From Natronococcus sp. CG52 (GTDB lineage: Archaea; Halobacteriota; Halobacteria; Halobacteriales; Natrialbaceae), in assembly GCF_023913515.1 (NCBI RefSeq), contig NZ_CP099391.1:434001-498000 (forward strand): a stretch of 64,000 nt of DNA. Reading direction: 5' to 3'. Of this stretch, positions 1,061 through 6,492 are shown in pieces. Made by a program: the position numbers and the translations under genes. Each line of letters begins with the position of its first letter. Position 1 is the stretch's first letter. Under the pieces are notes generated by a model, which saw only the letters and a program-made list of their open reading frames with translations, made no database searches and was not told the DNA's origin.

Positions 1061-3118
1061 ATGTCTCCCGACCAGTCAGACTGCGGACGGCGAACGGCCG
1101 TCCGACCGACGCGAGGCGAACCGGCGGCGGACCGAAGTCAGGTGTACGCGATCGACGACGGCGAACTTCGAGCCAGGGATCCGTCGGAGGTCGACCGGGA
1201 CTGCGGCTGCGGACGGACGCACACGCGTCGAACGTTCATGGGTGCGACCGCAGCCGGCGTGGCGGGACTGACACTCGGTTCTCAGGTCCCCAGCGTCGCG
1301 GCCGAGGAACCGGAGGGTGACACCGTCACGATCGTCCACGACCTCCACTCGCACAGCGAGATCGGCGAACCCGGTGAGCCGAACATCGCGCGCTACCAGC
1401 GGGTCGTCCAGGAACAACTCGCGGACCGCGACGACGCGGTCTTCCTCGCGAACGGGGACGAACTCGGCTCGTCGACGATCTCCTTTTTCACCGAGGGGGC
1501 GCACAAGATCGACTTCATGAACGACATGAACCTCACCGCCGCGGGCGTCGGCAACCACGACTTCGACTACGGCGTCGACGTCGCCGAGCGGCGGTTCAGA
1601 GACAGCGAGTTCCCGTGGCTGAACTCGGCGCTGTACACCCCCGACGGCGAGCTGTTCCCGGGCACCGAGCGGTACACGACGCTCGAGATCGGCGACCTCA
1701 CGGTCGGTCTCTTCAACGTCGTCCTCCGGGACTTCCACGGGATCACCGACTACCCCGACGAGTACGAGCAGCGGGATCCGGTCGAGACCGCCCGGGAAAT
1801 GACCGACCTCCTCCGGGAGGAGGAGGGCGCGGACGTCGTCGTCTGCTCGTCGCACACGCCCCACGAGACCCACTTCGAACTCGCCGAGGAGGTCGACGGC
1901 CTCGACGCGATCTTCGGCTCGCACTCCCACTACACGATGGACGCGGCGGAGATCCACGAGGGGACCGTCATCAGCGAGGTCGGCTACGCCTACTTCCACC
2001 TGGGCGTGATGACTCTCGACGCGGACGGCGACCTCGTGAGCTGGGAGCGGATCGACCTGGACGGGGACGTCGAGCCCGATCCGGAGTTCGAGGAACGGAT
2101 CGAGGCCCAGTACGACGAACTCGAGGAGGAACTCGCCGAGCCGGTCGGCGAGACGGCCGTCGAACTCACCTCGTCCGGCGCCGTCAACTACGCCCGCGAG
2201 AGCCGGCTCGGGAACCTCATCACGGACGCGATGCTCGACGTGCACGACGAGGCCGAGGTCTCGTTCCAGAACGCCGGCGGCATCCGGACGAACACCACCT
2301 ACGGGCCGGGCGAACTCACCGCAGGGGACGTCCTGAGCGTTCTCCCGTTCGGGAACGAGGTCGTCGTCTTCGAGGCGACCGGCGAGGAGATTCGGCAGGT
2401 GCTCGAGAACCGGGTCGACGTCCTGCCCGACAACGCCTTCGGCGCCCAGCAGGCTCAGCAGGTCGGCGGCCTCCAGTTCGAGTGGAGCGGTCACGAGACG
2501 GACGAGATCCACGACGTCTACGTCGACGGCGACCCCCTCGAGCCCGACGAGACGTACGTCGTCTCGATGACGGACTACCTGAAGGACGTCGCGGGCGCCT
2601 ACGAGCCGTTCCGCGACGCGGAGCTCATCTGGGACGCCGGGATCGTCCTCGGTCCGGCCGTCATGGAGTACATCGAGGAGCACAGCCCCGTCGAACCGAC
2701 GCTCGAGAACCGCATTTTGCGGGTCGACGAGGACGTCGGGAGCCAGCGAGAGGTTGCCCGCCGACGCGGTCGCACGATGCTCCGGTTCGACGTTCCCGAG
2801 GGCGCGACCGAAATCGCCGACGAGGAGACGTTCTACGGCCTCGTCTGGGACGACGGCTTCGACCCGGATCCGGAGTACGTCGAGGTCGACGGCGACGAGC
2901 TCTGGATCGGCTACGACACCGACGAGTTCCAGCGCTTCCTCGCGGAGACCGACGCCGAGGAGATCCGGATCTTCGGCGGATTCTCCCCCGACGAGGAGCA
3001 CTACGGCTACACTGGCCCCGACGGAAACCTCCTCGAGCTTCCCGTCGCGGTCGCGTACGACCGCTTCAAGCTGAAGGCGACGATCGACGCGACCTCGCCG
3101 TCGCTTCGTTCGGACTGA
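1061..3118 (+). CDS. Tat-exported bifunctional metallophosphatase / 5'-nucleotidase (UshA family)
   Basis: 685 aa from ATG 1061; an upstream in-frame ATG at 1040 is less likely. The calcineurin-like metallophosphatase motifs are all present: VHDLHSHSE (D-x-H), NGDELGSS, GNHDFDYG, SHTPHE and GSHSHYT. The 5'-nucleotidase C-terminal domain follows, with NAGGIRTNTTYGPGEL and LSVLPFGNEVV. The enzyme should dephosphorylate nucleotides outside the cell. A twin-arginine signal (TRRTFMGATAAGVAGLTLG) supports Tat export. The arginines sit at about residues 56-57, giving an unusually long hydrophilic n-region. After the nucleotidase domain there is an extra C-terminal stretch of about 125 residues (from about 2740) that I do not recognise. 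No membrane anchor or lipobox is obvious. Confidence 0.9.
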   Translation: MSPDQSDCGRRTAVRPTRGEPAADRSQVYAIDDGELRARDPSEVDRDCGCGRTHTRRTFMGATAAGVAGLTLGSQVPSVAAEEPEGDTVTIVHDLHSHSEIGEPGEPNIARYQRVVQEQLADRDDAVFLANGDELGSSTISFFTEGAHKIDFMNDMNLTAAGVGNHDFDYGVDVAERRFRDSEFPWLNSALYTPDGELFPGTERYTTLEIGDLTVGLFNVVLRDFHGITDYPDEYEQRDPVETAREMTDLLREEEGADVVVCSSHTPHETHFELAEEVDGLDAIFGSHSHYTMDAAEIHEGTVISEVGYAYFHLGVMTLDADGDLVSWERIDLDGDVEPDPEFEERIEAQYDELEEELAEPVGETAVELTSSGAVNYARESRLGNLITDAMLDVHDEAEVSFQNAGGIRTNTTYGPGELTAGDVLSVLPFGNEVVVFEATGEEIRQVLENRVDVLPDNAFGAQQAQQVGGLQFEWSGHETDEIHDVYVDGDPLEPDETYVVSMTDYLKDVAGAYEPFRDAELIWDAGIVLGPAVMEYIEEHSPVEPTLENRILRVDEDVGSQREVARRRGRTMLRFDVPEGATEIADEETFYGLVWDDGFDPDPEYVEVDGDELWIGYDTDEFQRFLAETDAEEIRIFGGFSPDEEHYGYTGPDGNLLELPVAVAYDRFKLKATIDATSPSLRSD

Positions 3119-3180
3119 GGAGACGACAGGGTGCTGCGAGACCGCGCGGCTCTCCTGCAGATCCCCGCGACGGCGTTTAG

Positions 3181-3465
3181 GACGCCGCAGTTCGCACCTC
3201 GCGTACGGAACGGGCGGCTGCGGACGTTTCCGACCAGCGCGGCCGGAGGATCGTCGTCACGGGCGCGAACAGCGGCATCGGTCTCGAGACGGCCCGCGAA
3301 CTCGCACGCAACGGCGCGACGGTGATCGTAGCCTGCCGCAGCGAGAACCTGCGTCGGGACGCCGGCGGCCGAGCGTCGCGGGTCGTCACCGTCTCGAGCG
3401 AACTCCACGAGCGCAGCGAGATCGACTTCGACGACCTGCCGGCGGCGATCCGCGCCGTCGAGTGA
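3181..3465 (+). pseudogene. Short-chain dehydrogenase (SDR) remnant with internal deletion
   Basis: This open stretch lacks any ATG, GTG or TTG start and follows a stop at 3178-3180. The frame beginning at 3181 reads [20 protein letters not shown], then [20 protein letters not shown]. That is the N-terminal Rossmann part of a haloarchaeal SDR, including the TGxxxGIG cofactor loop. Directly after about 45 residues it continues as [20 protein letters not shown] and stops at 3463-3465. The VVTVSS segment is the strand that carries the catalytic Ser region and normally lies about 90 residues further on. The middle of the gene, including part of the Rossmann fold, and everything after the Ser segment (the YxxxK motif and C-terminus) are missing. 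The remnant cannot encode a working enzyme. Confidence 0.8.
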
Positions 3466-3546
3466 CGCTCGAACGGGACGATCGACGTCCCGGTTCGACG
3501 CGATCCGACCGTAACGCGAAAGGCCGCTCGCGCGAAGCCCTACGTA

Positions 3547-3885
3547 ATGAGCGACGACGGCATTCAGCGTGCGAGCGAGGTCGGCTCGTCGGACGCGCCG
3601 CCGGTCGAGGAGAAGCCGTACAAGATCATCTTCGAGGCCAACAAGTGCTTCGGCGCGGGCAAGTGCGCGGAGGTCAGCGACAACTGGGAGATGTCCATCG
3701 CTTCCGGGATCGCCAAACCGAAAGCGTATTTCTTCGGCGAGGAGGCCCTCGAGCACAACGTCCGCGCCGCGGAGGTCTGCCCGGCGAAGAAGGACGAGGG
3801 CTGTATCCACGTGATCGACCGTCGGACGGACGAGGAGATCGCGCCGGATCCACACGGGGACGGGACGCTGAGCGTCGACTGGTAA
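3547..3885 (+). CDS. Single-cluster ferredoxin-like protein
   Basis: 112 aa, acidic and cytosolic. Cysteines lie in NKCFGAGKCAEV (C-x5-C) and AAEVCPAKKDEGC. This pattern fits the Fer4_15-type ferredoxins, which hold one [3Fe-4S] or [4Fe-4S] cluster between a C-x5-C pair and a later C-P. The CP-A-x3-E-x-C spacing at the end offers a possible extra ligand. ATG at 3547 is the only start that gives a short hydrophilic N-terminus. The gene stands alone between the SDR remnant and tRNA-Leu, so its redox partner cannot be read from context. Cluster type is inferred from cysteine spacing only. Confidence 0.75.
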   Translation: MSDDGIQRASEVGSSDAPPVEEKPYKIIFEANKCFGAGKCAEVSDNWEMSIASGIAKPKAYFFGEEALEHNVRAAEVCPAKKDEGCIHVIDRRTDEEIAPDPHGDGTLSVDW

Positions 3886-3948
3886 CGGGTCGATCGAACA
3901 CCGAAACGCACATCCCAGAATAGCGGCTATCATCGAGTGCCTTTCTGT

Positions 3949-4032
3949 GCGAGGGTAGCCAAGCAGGCCAACGGCGGTGGGCTTAAGACCCGCTCCCGTA
4001 GGGGTCCGAGGGTTCAAATCCCTTCCCTCGCA
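3949..4032 (+). tRNA. tRNA-Leu (anticodon TAA)
   Basis: 84 bases, starting GCGAGGG and ending CCCTCGC plus discriminator A, which pair as a 7-bp acceptor stem. The anticodon stem GTGGG/CCCGC encloses loop CTTAAGA, so the anticodon is TAA. A long variable arm follows (class II tRNA) and then the T-arm GGGTTCAAATCCC. CCA is not encoded. The last 22 bases are repeated exactly twice just downstream (see repeats), which marks this tRNA as an integration or duplication hotspot. Confidence 0.95.
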
Positions 4033-4136
4033 TCGCTGTCGCGAGCAATCCGCGAGCGACAGCGATCGAACGGAAGGATTTGAATCAGGGAGTGGAGCGA
4101 AGCGGAACGACCGTGGTTCAAATCCCTTCCCTCGCA
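4033..4136 (+). repeat. tRNA-Leu tail repeat, unit 1
   Basis: A 104-base unit directly following the tRNA that ends (4115-4136) with an exact copy of the last 22 bases of tRNA-Leu. It opens with a hairpin whose arms are CGCTGTCGC and GCGACAGCG. It also holds AAGGATTTGAAT, which resembles the reverse complement of the T-arm, and AGCGAAGCGG. No coding signal is seen. Confidence 0.85.
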
Positions 4137-4253
4137 TGTCGCCGCGAACAACTCGTGAGCGGCGACTACGTAACGGAGGGATTTGAATGAGACCGAGGTT
4201 CTGCGAGCGAAGCGAGCAGGTTCTCGGACGCGGTTCAAATCCCTTCCCTCGCA
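4137..4253 (+). repeat. tRNA-Leu tail repeat, unit 2
   Basis: A 117-base unit with the same plan as unit 1: hairpin arms GTCGCCGC and GCGGCGAC, then GGAGGGATTTGAATGA, GCGAGCGAAGCGAGC, and a terminal exact copy (4232-4253) of the last 22 bases of tRNA-Leu. It abuts the 3' end of the histidine kinase gene, 76 bases away. Confidence 0.85.
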
Positions 4254-4329
4254 TACCGACTCGAACGAACGCGAGAGTCGCGTACTCGGGGTAACCAACT
4301 GCCCGGTCCGGGAAGATGGTCTCACACGT

Positions 4330-6342
4330 CTACGACTCCTCGACCGCGGGAAGCGTGAACGAGAACGTCGCCCCCTCGCCCGGTTCGGAATCGACCCAGA
4401 TGCGTCCACCGTGGCGTTCGATAATACGCTGACAGAGCGCCAGGCCGATCCCAGTGCCGGAGTGCTCCTCGCGAGTTTGGAGTCGCTGGAACACCTCGAA
4501 GACGCGCTCCTGGTCGGCGGGGTCGATACCGACACCGTCGTCGTGAACCGAGATCTTCCACGCTCTCCGTTGGCAATCGGCTTCGACGTGAACCCGTGGT
4601 TGCTCGTCGCCGCTGTATGCGATCGCGTTACTGAGAAGATTTTGGAAGACCTGTCGCAACTGGCTGTCATCACCTTCTACGCGAGGAAGATCGTCGGTCG
4701 TGATTTCGGCGTTGCTCTCGTTGATCTGCACCTGCAGGTCTTCCCGTACTTCCTCGAAGAGACAATCCAGATCGATCGGCTCGAGCGGGTCTCCCTGCGT
4801 ATCCACTCGCGAATACGCGAGGAGACCGTCGATCATGTCGCGCATTCGATCGGCACCGTCGACGGCGAACGCGAGGAACTCCTCACCGTCCTCGTCGAGG
4901 TCGTCCTCGTACCGACGGTCGAGGAGCTGAAGATAGCTCGAGACCATTCGAAGCGGCTCCTGGAGGTCGTGCGAGGCCGCATACGCGAACTGTTCGAGGC
5001 GCTCGTTGGACTCCTCGAGCTGGCGCTTGCGTTCCTTGAGTTCGGATTCCAGGCGCTTGCGCTCGGTGATATCGGAGATGATTCCCTCGACGTCGATGAC
5101 GCCCTCCCCGTTGTCGACGACGCTGCGGCCGTAATCTCTGACCCACCGCACGTCACCGTCAGCGGTTTTGATGCGGTAGGTTTCGGAGAAGGGCTCTCCT
5201 TTCGCCGCCTGCCGGTGGATCGTCTCCCTCAGTTTTTCGCGGTCCTCCTGAATCATGACGTCCTCGCCCCATCCGATATCGCCGCTCTCGAGGGTGACAG
5301 GGTCGTAACCGGTCAGTTCTTTGCACGCATCGCTGACGAACTCCATGGGCCAGCCGCGCTCGTTCTTACAGCGATAGACCATTCCGGGAACGTTGGCCAC
5401 CAACGTCGAGAGGCGTCGCTCGCGCATCTCGAGCGTTCGTTCGCGCTCCTTGCGCTCGGTAACGTCGCGATCCGAGACGATTATGGACACGATATCACCG
5501 TCGTCGTTCCTGACTGGCCTGAAATAGCCGCTGAGCGTGTATCGCTCTCCGTTCGGTCGAGTAAGGTCGGTCTCGAAATCGACGTACTCGCCGGCCGCTG
5601 CTCGCTTCGTCCATTCTTTCACCTCGGTCTGAACCTCGTCTTCTTCTTCCCACCACGGCGTCTCCCAGAACGGTTCGCCCGTCACGTCGCTGAGGTCGTC
5701 GTCGATGTACTCCATCGCCGTCTGATTGATATCCACTACCGTCCCGTCCGGCTCGAGCAGTCCGACGAGGATGTTCGGATCTTCGAAAATCGCCTCGAAT
5801 CGTCGCTCCGTCTGCGTGTTTTCGATCGCTGACGCGAGAACGTTAGCGACGCTCTGGACGAAGTTGGCGTCGTGTTCCGTAAACTCCCGCCTCTCGGTCG
5901 TATGCGTTCCCAGGACGCCCCACGGCTCTTCGACCGAGCCGATGATGACGCTGATGCCGCTGACGACGTCGTGACTGGTGAGCAGTTCGGGACCGGAAAA
6001 CCGTTCCTCGGTGCGGAGATCGTCGACGACGATCGGTTCCTCGGAGAGCAGCGTGTACCCCGCCTGCGAGTCCACGTCGGTCGGCACCGTCGCGTTCCCG
6101 ACGAGGCCGTCGCGCCAACCGACACCCTGTCGAAGGAAGACTTCGTCGCCGCCGGGGAGCAACTCGAGCACCTTGGCGTACTCGTTGTCGAGCGTTTCCG
6201 CGACCGCGACCGAGGTATCGTGCATCAACTGGTCGAGATCGTCAGTCTCGAGCGCCTGCTGTCCGAGTTCGGCGACGACCTCCTGCTGACGGATGCGGGT
6301 GTGAACCGCCGCGTCCACATCCGTCTGAGGAGAGTTATTCAT
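4330..6342 (-). CDS. GAF-PAS-PAS sensor histidine kinase
   Basis: 670 aa, soluble; no membrane span is seen, so it probably senses a cytoplasmic signal. The order is a GAF-like domain (about 25-175), PAS 1 (about 180-300, ending DRDVTERKERE), PAS 2 (about 305-430, ending ISDITERKR), and a short coiled linker. HisKA follows with FAYAASHDLQEPL (phospho-acceptor His near 458), then HATPase_c with QNLLSNAIAYS, DDGVGI and GTGIGLAL. ATG 6342 is 29 bases from an ATTATA-type box on the same strand, so the transcript is probably leaderless. No response regulator is adjacent, as is common for haloarchaeal kinases. The gene lies between tRNA-Leu tail repeats on both sides, which suggests it arrived as a separate module. 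Confidence 0.93.
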   Translation of the reverse strand: MNNSPQTDVDAAVHTRIRQQEVVAELGQQALETDDLDQLMHDTSVAVAETLDNEYAKVLELLPGGDEVFLRQGVGWRDGLVGNATVPTDVDSQAGYTLLSEEPIVVDDLRTEERFSGPELLTSHDVVSGISVIIGSVEEPWGVLGTHTTERREFTEHDANFVQSVANVLASAIENTQTERRFEAIFEDPNILVGLLEPDGTVVDINQTAMEYIDDDLSDVTGEPFWETPWWEEEDEVQTEVKEWTKRAAAGEYVDFETDLTRPNGERYTLSGYFRPVRNDDGDIVSIIVSDRDVTERKERERTLEMRERRLSTLVANVPGMVYRCKNERGWPMEFVSDACKELTGYDPVTLESGDIGWGEDVMIQEDREKLRETIHRQAAKGEPFSETYRIKTADGDVRWVRDYGRSVVDNGEGVIDVEGIISDITERKRLESELKERKRQLEESNERLEQFAYAASHDLQEPLRMVSSYLQLLDRRYEDDLDEDGEEFLAFAVDGADRMRDMIDGLLAYSRVDTQGDPLEPIDLDCLFEEVREDLQVQINESNAEITTDDLPRVEGDDSQLRQVFQNLLSNAIAYSGDEQPRVHVEADCQRRAWKISVHDDGVGIDPADQERVFEVFQRLQTREEHSGTGIGLALCQRIIERHGGRIWVDSEPGEGATFSFTLPAVEES

Positions 6343-6366
6343 TCAGAACAAATACTATCGGAAGCA

Positions 6367-6375
6367 GTATAATAG
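6367..6375 (-). promoter_or_regulatory. TATA-like box of the histidine kinase gene
   Basis: The minus strand reads CTATTATAC, centred about 29 bases before the kinase ATG at 6342. That is the spacing expected for a leaderless archaeal transcript. Confidence 0.5.
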
Positions 6376-6388
6376 CTTCCCCAGAATT

Positions 6389-6492
6389 ACCGCTGCGAAC
6401 AACTCGCGAGCGTCGGCGATCGAAGAACGGGTCCGAGGCTCTGCGAGCAAACGGAGCAGGGTCTCGGACGTGATCTACTCCCGTTCCTCGCA
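6389..6492 (+). repeat. Degenerate tRNA-tail repeat unit 3
   Basis: This stretch aligns with tail-repeat unit 2 across most of its length. Shared pieces are GCGAACAACTCGCGAGCG (unit 2 GCGAACAACTCGTGAGCG), CCGAGGCTCTGCGAGC, GGAGCAGGGTCTCGGACG, and an eroded end CCCGTTCCTCGCA in place of the exact tRNA tail. It lies on the far side of the histidine kinase from the tRNA, so the kinase is enclosed by related repeats. Confidence 0.75.

Follow-up and report, generated by a model that had tools for sequence, protein, structure and literature searches.

The window analysed here is a stretch of 64,000 nt from the haloarchaeon Natronococcus sp. CG52 (contig NZ_CP099391.1, positions 434,001 to 498,000 of the forward strand), and the subject of the analysis is a family of short, structured repeats, here called tail units, which stand directly behind its tRNA-Leu(TAA) gene. 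The original prediction had pointed to exact repeats of the last 22 nt of this tRNA (4011-4032, GGTTCAAATCCCTTCCCTCGCA) at 4115-4136 and 4232-4253, and the sequence confirms them, together with the hairpin arms given for both units. Two units are complete, with about 104-117 nt each, and the first abuts the 3' end of the tRNA with zero gap. From 5' to 3', each unit is made up of H1, which is a GC-rich hairpin; a segment antisense to the T-loop and T-stem of the local tRNA; the inner hairpin; and the 21-22 nt tRNA end, copied exactly. The segment GGATTTGAAT, earlier described as reversed T-arm-like, is real and is precisely the antisense of the T-loop and T-stem of tRNA-Leu(TAA) itself. A related degraded unit is likewise found where it had been expected, past the neighbouring histidine kinase gene. 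The original prediction had overlooked the H1 of a third, truncated unit. The features of the locus are as follows.

3949..4032, + strand: tRNA-Leu(TAA), with its tail G53-A73 at 4012-4032
4033..4136, + strand: unit 1, complete (covariance model R1, 93 bits, E 3e-19)
4034..4064, + strand: H1 of unit 1, arms CGCTGTCGC / GCGACAGCG, with tandem GA.GA within
4072..4085, + strand: antisense T-arm of unit 1, GGAAGGATTTGAAT
4086..4115, + strand: inner hairpin of unit 1, whose 30 nt recur unchanged as the inner hairpin behind tRNA-Arg(CCT) in the sister genome G001
4116..4136, + strand: tail copy 1, 21 nt, exact
4137..4253, + strand: unit 2, complete (model R1, 110 bits, E 3.7e-23)
4138..4166, + strand: H1 of unit 2, arms GTCGCCGC / GCGGCGAC
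4175..4188, + strand: antisense T-arm of unit 2, GGAGGGATTTGAAT
4189..4232, + strand: inner hairpin of unit 2, of the widespread GAGGTTCTGCGAGCGAAGCGAGCAGGTTCTCGG type
4233..4253, + strand: tail copy 2, 21 nt, exact
about 4254..4290, + strand: H1 of a third, truncated unit, TACCGACTCGAACGAACGCGAGAGTCGCGTACTCGGGG, partly by eye; this H1 type also heads Leu(TAA) units of other genomes
6387..6492, + strand: degraded unit beyond the kinase, with a tail-like end at 6472-6492 (model R1, 37.6 bits, E = 2.7e-6)
4330..6342, - strand: histidine kinase (GAF, PAS, PAS, HisKA, HATPase_c), a neighbour outside the units

Overall, the CG52 genome of 4.74 Mb has 48 tRNA loci (47 listed tRNAs and the intron-bearing tRNA-Trp), and 25 of the 48 are followed by a copy of their own tail, counted when at most 5 of 21 positions mismatch within 700 nt downstream of the tRNA. 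Such copies occur upstream at 2 of 48 loci, which are tandem tRNA genes, while the tails of other tRNAs give 123 of 2242 and shuffled sequence 0 of 240; these controls rule out chance or low-complexity repeats as the source. The copy tracks its tRNA, with His units ending in GTTCGATTCTCGCACCCGGAC and Pro(GGG) units in GTTCAATTCTCGGCGGTCCCA, and the antisense segment also fits its own tRNA best, since the summed score is 284 against 230 ± 6.8 for permuted assignments, the best of 5000 permutations reaching 254. Arrays hold one to three units, all in one orientation, and units are missing behind about half of the CG52 tRNAs. By eye, no units are seen at tRNA-Ala(TGC) (L013, L014 and L010, in rRNA operons), Ser(GCT) (L039) and Leu(CAG) (L051), which lie close before rRNA or apparent ribosomal-protein genes, as if units were kept only where transcription can end. 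We know of no other repeat family whose members are each fitted to their own tRNA, in sense as well as in antisense.

The distribution of the units was then surveyed with model R1 at a cut-off of E <= 1e-4, the unit counts per genome being lower bounds. Matches are found in 143 of 146 sampled genomes of the class, covering 57 of 58 genera. In a sample of the whole phylum, 22 of 148 genomes match, every one of them a haloarchaeon, and among the haloarchaea only G069 and G072 are without a match; none of the 124 sampled non-haloarchaeal genomes matches, and because these genomes have tRNAs too, the possibility that R1 simply matches tRNAs is ruled out. In three genomes, 62 of 67 units begin within 400 nt behind the 3' end of a same-strand tRNA, and closer reading adds a 63rd. 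The other four are the unit past the kinase, two units that follow tRNA fragments which integrated elements have left (L124, L127), and a last one, located in L126 at 2.4 kb behind tRNA-Leu(TAG) and that tRNA's own unit. Units far from tRNAs are thus not taken as independent copies, since most of them stand behind such fragments or behind a tRNA initially missed. Where units lie far from a tRNA, they have mostly been displaced by an element that integrated separately. An open reading frame (ORF) beside the L126 unit looks integrase-like by eye but has no Pfam match, and no integrase is claimed there. A 29-nt inner module occurs 19 times in 84,980 named species genomes, always in haloarchaea of the Natrialbaceae type, and 18 of the occurrences follow one or other of seven different tRNAs, while the last follows a tRNA-Phe fragment.

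A structural alignment of 33 units from many tRNAs and species reveals a conserved fold. RNAalifold places 25 pairs, of which 19 show two-sided changes, and 90.7% of pairing cells are filled, against 77% in column shuffles and 29-40% with partners slid. Compensatory changes are also found between relatives at one locus, as in GCTATCGC/GCGATAGC versus GCTACCGC/GCGGTAGC at Leu(TAA) and GCGTCGC/GCGACGC versus GCGCCGC/GCGGCGC at Ala(CGC). The tandem G.A mismatch (GA.GA) within H1 is retained in 31 of 33 rows. In the inner hairpins, 54 of 67 loops are triloops, 30 of these being GNA, and 54 of 67 are closed by C-G. Mini-hairpins of the form d(GCGNAGC) are extraordinarily stable in DNA. The GNA triloops belong to this class of DNA mini-hairpin (PMC4686876), and they hint, short of proof, at folding on the DNA level. 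Two side observations concern the anatomy. Frequently, a T-loop copy has an additional single base, always in the same position (GTTCAANATCC, GTTCACAATCC), which differs by species and would give a one-base bulge; this is seen at tRNA-Ala(CGC) (L147, L200, L197, L198, L195) and in several tRNA-Phe and tRNA-Arg(CCG) units. There is also a second, shorter unit type of about 60-90 nt, in which antisense and copy cover the acceptor end only (TGGACTCGC ... hairpin ... CAGCGAGTCC), located behind tRNA-Ala(CGC) in G008, G014, G017, G039 and G041 (L210, L191, L203, L205, L208), in L050 (tRNA-Arg(GCG)) and in L133.

Such a fold would also be expected if the units were functional RNA, namely a structured 3' trailer of the pre-tRNA serving termination, 3'-end maturation or tRNA quality control, in which the antisense segment would lock the tail copy so that it does not compete with the real 3' strand. 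This is the main rival explanation and a serious one, which we nevertheless consider rather unlikely. The strong covariation, the retention of H1 at the same tRNA across genera and the near-universal range in the class all speak for it, as does the apparent lack of units, by eye, at tRNAs that are read into a downstream gene or rRNA operon (Ala(TGC), Ser(GCT), Leu(CAG)). However, a trailer fits poorly with about half of the tRNAs being unit-free and with sister species differing at the same tRNA; moreover, differently shaped inner hairpins replace one another, fresh units copy even the unpaired acceptor end exactly, the loops are mostly GNA triloops and not RNA tetraloops, and Rfam has no family above its gathering cut-off for the units, only the tRNA itself being matched.

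The comparison of sister species shows how arrays change. At tRNA-Ala(CGC), G001 has a unit of 143 nt where CG52 passes straight into the same flank (TCAGRATTTTGTAACG); at tRNA-Leu(CAA), CG52 has a unit where G001, G002 and G008 go directly to CTGGCAA.CAGTGCGG, and in G003, G004, G006 and G007 a slightly different form of this flank likewise follows directly after the tRNA. Both empty sites have exact unit boundaries, continuous flanks and an intact tRNA. A reading of these sites as fresh insertions is rejected, since other species of the genus, and other genera too, carry the units at both tRNAs and loss is at least as likely. At Leu(TAA), CG52 has [H1a-inner a][H1b-inner b] and G001 has H1a-inner b, which is the joint of a deletion. 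The arrays are also polar. Among 32 arrays of at least two units, the tRNA-proximal tail has 0.22 mismatches and the distal one 1.63 (18 arrays against 3, p = 2e-4), and counted by tRNA species the ratio is 9 against 1 (10 informative, p = 0.005), both p-values being optimistic because the array loci overlap in ancestry. In older tail copies, decay is stronger at the acceptor end, which is unpaired (0.12), than in the T-arm part, which is paired (0.035), whereas fresh units copy the acceptor end without error.

The two hairpins behave differently. A comparison of CG52 with G001 shows conservation of H1 at the same tRNA (up to 0.98), while tRNAs with different tails always stay below 0.88 in this hairpin. 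Inner hairpins at different tRNAs reach at least 88% identity in 28 of 1343 unit pairs, several being identical, while H1 does so in none. At Arg(CCT), CG52 and G001 have a common H1 (97%) and different inner hairpins, that of G001 being the one of unit 1 at CG52 Leu(TAA). Therefore, the inner hairpin is exchanged while the tRNA-specific frame stays in place. One may suppose that all this is a by-product of mutation, where tRNA genes undergo template switching and gene conversion that copy the tail both ways and perfect the palindromes nearby, with nothing mobile or selected. A double template switch would indeed give the order tail, antisense, tail, and the exchange of inner hairpins across T-loop repeats of 9-10 nt resembles microhomology-driven switching. 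We still regard this account as improbable: H1 and the inner hairpins have no local DNA source, and one and the same module turns up at many tRNAs and in many species; the GA.GA mismatch has persisted uncorrected, while palindrome correction alone would have erased it; and the restriction to one archaeal class would need a special cause.

Several known systems resemble the units in part. Partial copies of tRNAs occur at integrated elements (attR; PMC9897764, PMC8371274). Like attR, the units have a direct copy of the tRNA 3' end that starts in the T-loop and leaves the tRNA intact, and this identity block is duplicated on the two sides of the DNA in between; unlike attR, only about 100 bp lie between the copies, the fold is shared at dozens of tRNAs, an antisense copy is present and element genes are missing. 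The sequence between the copies has no sign of coming from an integrative element, given no match among phages or, with one exact pattern, among viral contigs, and a single plasmid match that is a tRNA locus on a chromid, and for the same reason the units are rejected as attachment sites of viruses or plasmids. The broader idea that the units are attachment-site scars or decoy sites of tRNA-targeting integrases, carried by proviruses or integrative plasmids, is very unlikely, although the block of 20-21 nt from T-loop to 3' end has the size of an integrase identity block and integrated elements do adjoin units. In CG52 (C1:1372000-1410819; L127, L022), for example, about 38.6 kb lie between tRNA-Lys(CTT) and its unit, with a partial tRNA-Lys tail at the far end, and this insert is probably an integrated element; in sister G001 the same unit stands directly behind tRNA-Lys(CTT), so the element entered the tRNA and displaced a unit already there. 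Halovirus records have no units, and one structure at dozens of tRNAs is unlike the scars of unrelated elements. As a separate observation, L129 (G123) has tRNA-Gly(TCC) with its unit, then 2.1 kb, then a tRNA 3' half with a near-identical unit, so that the duplicated block spans the whole unit.

Similarly, repetitive extragenic palindromes and bacterial interspersed mosaic elements (REP/BIME) and miniature inverted-repeat transposable elements (MITE) are short, non-coding, palindromic, numerous in a genome and protein-free as the units are, while the units are strictly behind tRNAs, in one orientation, custom-matched to each tRNA and bounded by a tail duplication of 20-21 nt. General intergenic dispersal as for REP/BIME is not seen, 63 of the 67 units being directly behind a tRNA and most others behind tRNA fragments. 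The units have no terminal inverted repeats as transposons do, and a parent transposase element was not systematically searched for; the empty and filled sites at Ala(CGC) and Leu(CAA) do differ by an element plus a target duplication, which a deletion between repeats would equally produce. Casposons and CRISPR arrays resemble the units in growing in a polar way and in deriving their repeat from the target, and Methanosarcina casposons use a tRNA-Leu 3' end; the units differ in having no such terminal inverted repeats, no Cas1 seen nearby, and 'spacers' that form one structured family.

Integron attC sites, of about 60-140 bp, come close in another way, being imperfect palindromes with a conserved shape and variable sequence, and the two-sided changes at 19 of 25 pairs place the units with them in this respect. 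Both have inverted conserved boxes at the two ends (GGATTTGAA / GTTCAAATCC in the units) and arrays that look younger at one end. The units however lack the GTTRRRY core at the crossover, their conserved end box GTTCAAATCC/GTTCGAATCC being the tRNA T-loop, and their boxes are tRNA T-arm sequences that differ per tRNA, with no gene cassettes and no integrase next to the array. A class-wide, integron-like system without genes may still be imagined, in which a recombinase would recognise the unit, folded as a single strand, in the manner of an integron site and use the tRNA T-arm for insertion, adding tRNA-specific hairpin cassettes at the tRNA end, restoring the tRNA each time and swapping hairpin cores among tRNA loci; we think this unlikely. 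On the whole, none of these known kinds accounts for every feature: integron sites, attachment scars, REP/MITE repeats and casposons either lack a defining feature that was tested or match only part of the anatomy.

The explanation that we favour, tentatively and with a little less than an even chance of being right, is that the tail units are a haloarchaeal family of about 100-130 bp, anchored at tRNAs and built of two hairpins, which represents a structured, non-autonomous DNA element at tRNA 3' ends that is added with duplication of the tail. It is preferred because the tail is exact including the unpaired acceptor end, the arrays are polar, the hairpins are interchangeable and sister species differ by whole units. 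The unit would be recognised in a folded, probably single-stranded DNA form and added at the tRNA-proximal end with a tail duplication of 20-21 nt, so that the tRNA would never be broken; units may be lost through recombination between tail repeats, and the inner hairpin may be traded across the inverted T-loop repeats on its two sides, which all units have. By analogy alone, the most natural candidate for the enzyme would be a tyrosine recombinase, of the host or of an element, with T-arm sites in tRNAs as its target. We infer all three of the DNA-level fold, the addition at the tRNA end and the recombinase action from comparison of sequences.

A number of points weigh against this explanation. 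The class-wide structural constraint is the main reason for doubt, and a functional element would explain just as well as a mobile one why a given tRNA keeps its H1 across genera. Losses between 21-nt repeats are the best account of the exact empty sites, as the same units occur in other species and genera, and no gain is directly seen; nor is a recombinase, a circular form or a new insertion. The polarity could also arise if selection or gene conversion worked chiefly on the first copy. The family is also absent from 50,697 phage records by blastn and from viral contigs searched with one exact pattern, and in plasmids it was found once, beside the tRNA on the chromid.

As for the kinase, the original prediction had proposed that repeated tail-forming insertions delivered it as a separate module, or that the units are a non-autonomous tRNA-targeting element. 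The latter half comes close to the explanation favoured here, the units being linked to tRNAs throughout the class, while the former finds no support. At the Leu(TAA) loci of 40 relatives, the presence of a kinase has no association with the number of tails (Mann-Whitney p = 0.57). Kinases of this kind stand beside tRNA-Leu(TAA) with no tail in G008, G012, G032 and G007, with two tails in CG52 and G026, and also with one tail in G005, G003, G006, G002 and G014, where the module idea had suggested looking for its absence; the kinase is absent beside two to three tails in G004, G023 and G042, and its absences overall span zero to three tails. In several genera, the tRNA is followed by zero or one unit and then by an aldehyde dehydrogenase gene, without a kinase. 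That successive tail insertions brought the kinase in between two units is thus hardly credible. The degraded unit on its far side speaks for such an origin, but it carries its own H1 and is therefore not the other half of a split unit, and none of the 40 relatives has a unit behind the kinase, an arrangement particular to CG52. The kinase is an ordinary, variable neighbour of tRNA-Leu(TAA).

The units, rather than the adjoining kinase, are the discovery, and a literature search on repeats and structures behind tRNAs found no published description of them, subscription papers being outside its reach. In the window, two long minus-strand ORFs, 3007-4254 and 4014-4673, run antisense through the tRNA and the units (MRGKGFEPR...) and are spurious, and antisense ORFs of this kind (e.g. 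3007-4254, -) probably give rise to false hypothetical proteins where haloarchaeal genomes are annotated. Searches for integrated elements in haloarchaea that rely on tRNA-tail repeats will also pick up the units. If the units are mobile, DNA would have a new way of persisting at tRNA ends with no harm to the gene; if they are functional RNA, tRNA biology would gain a new layer in Haloferax, a halophile that is genetically tractable.

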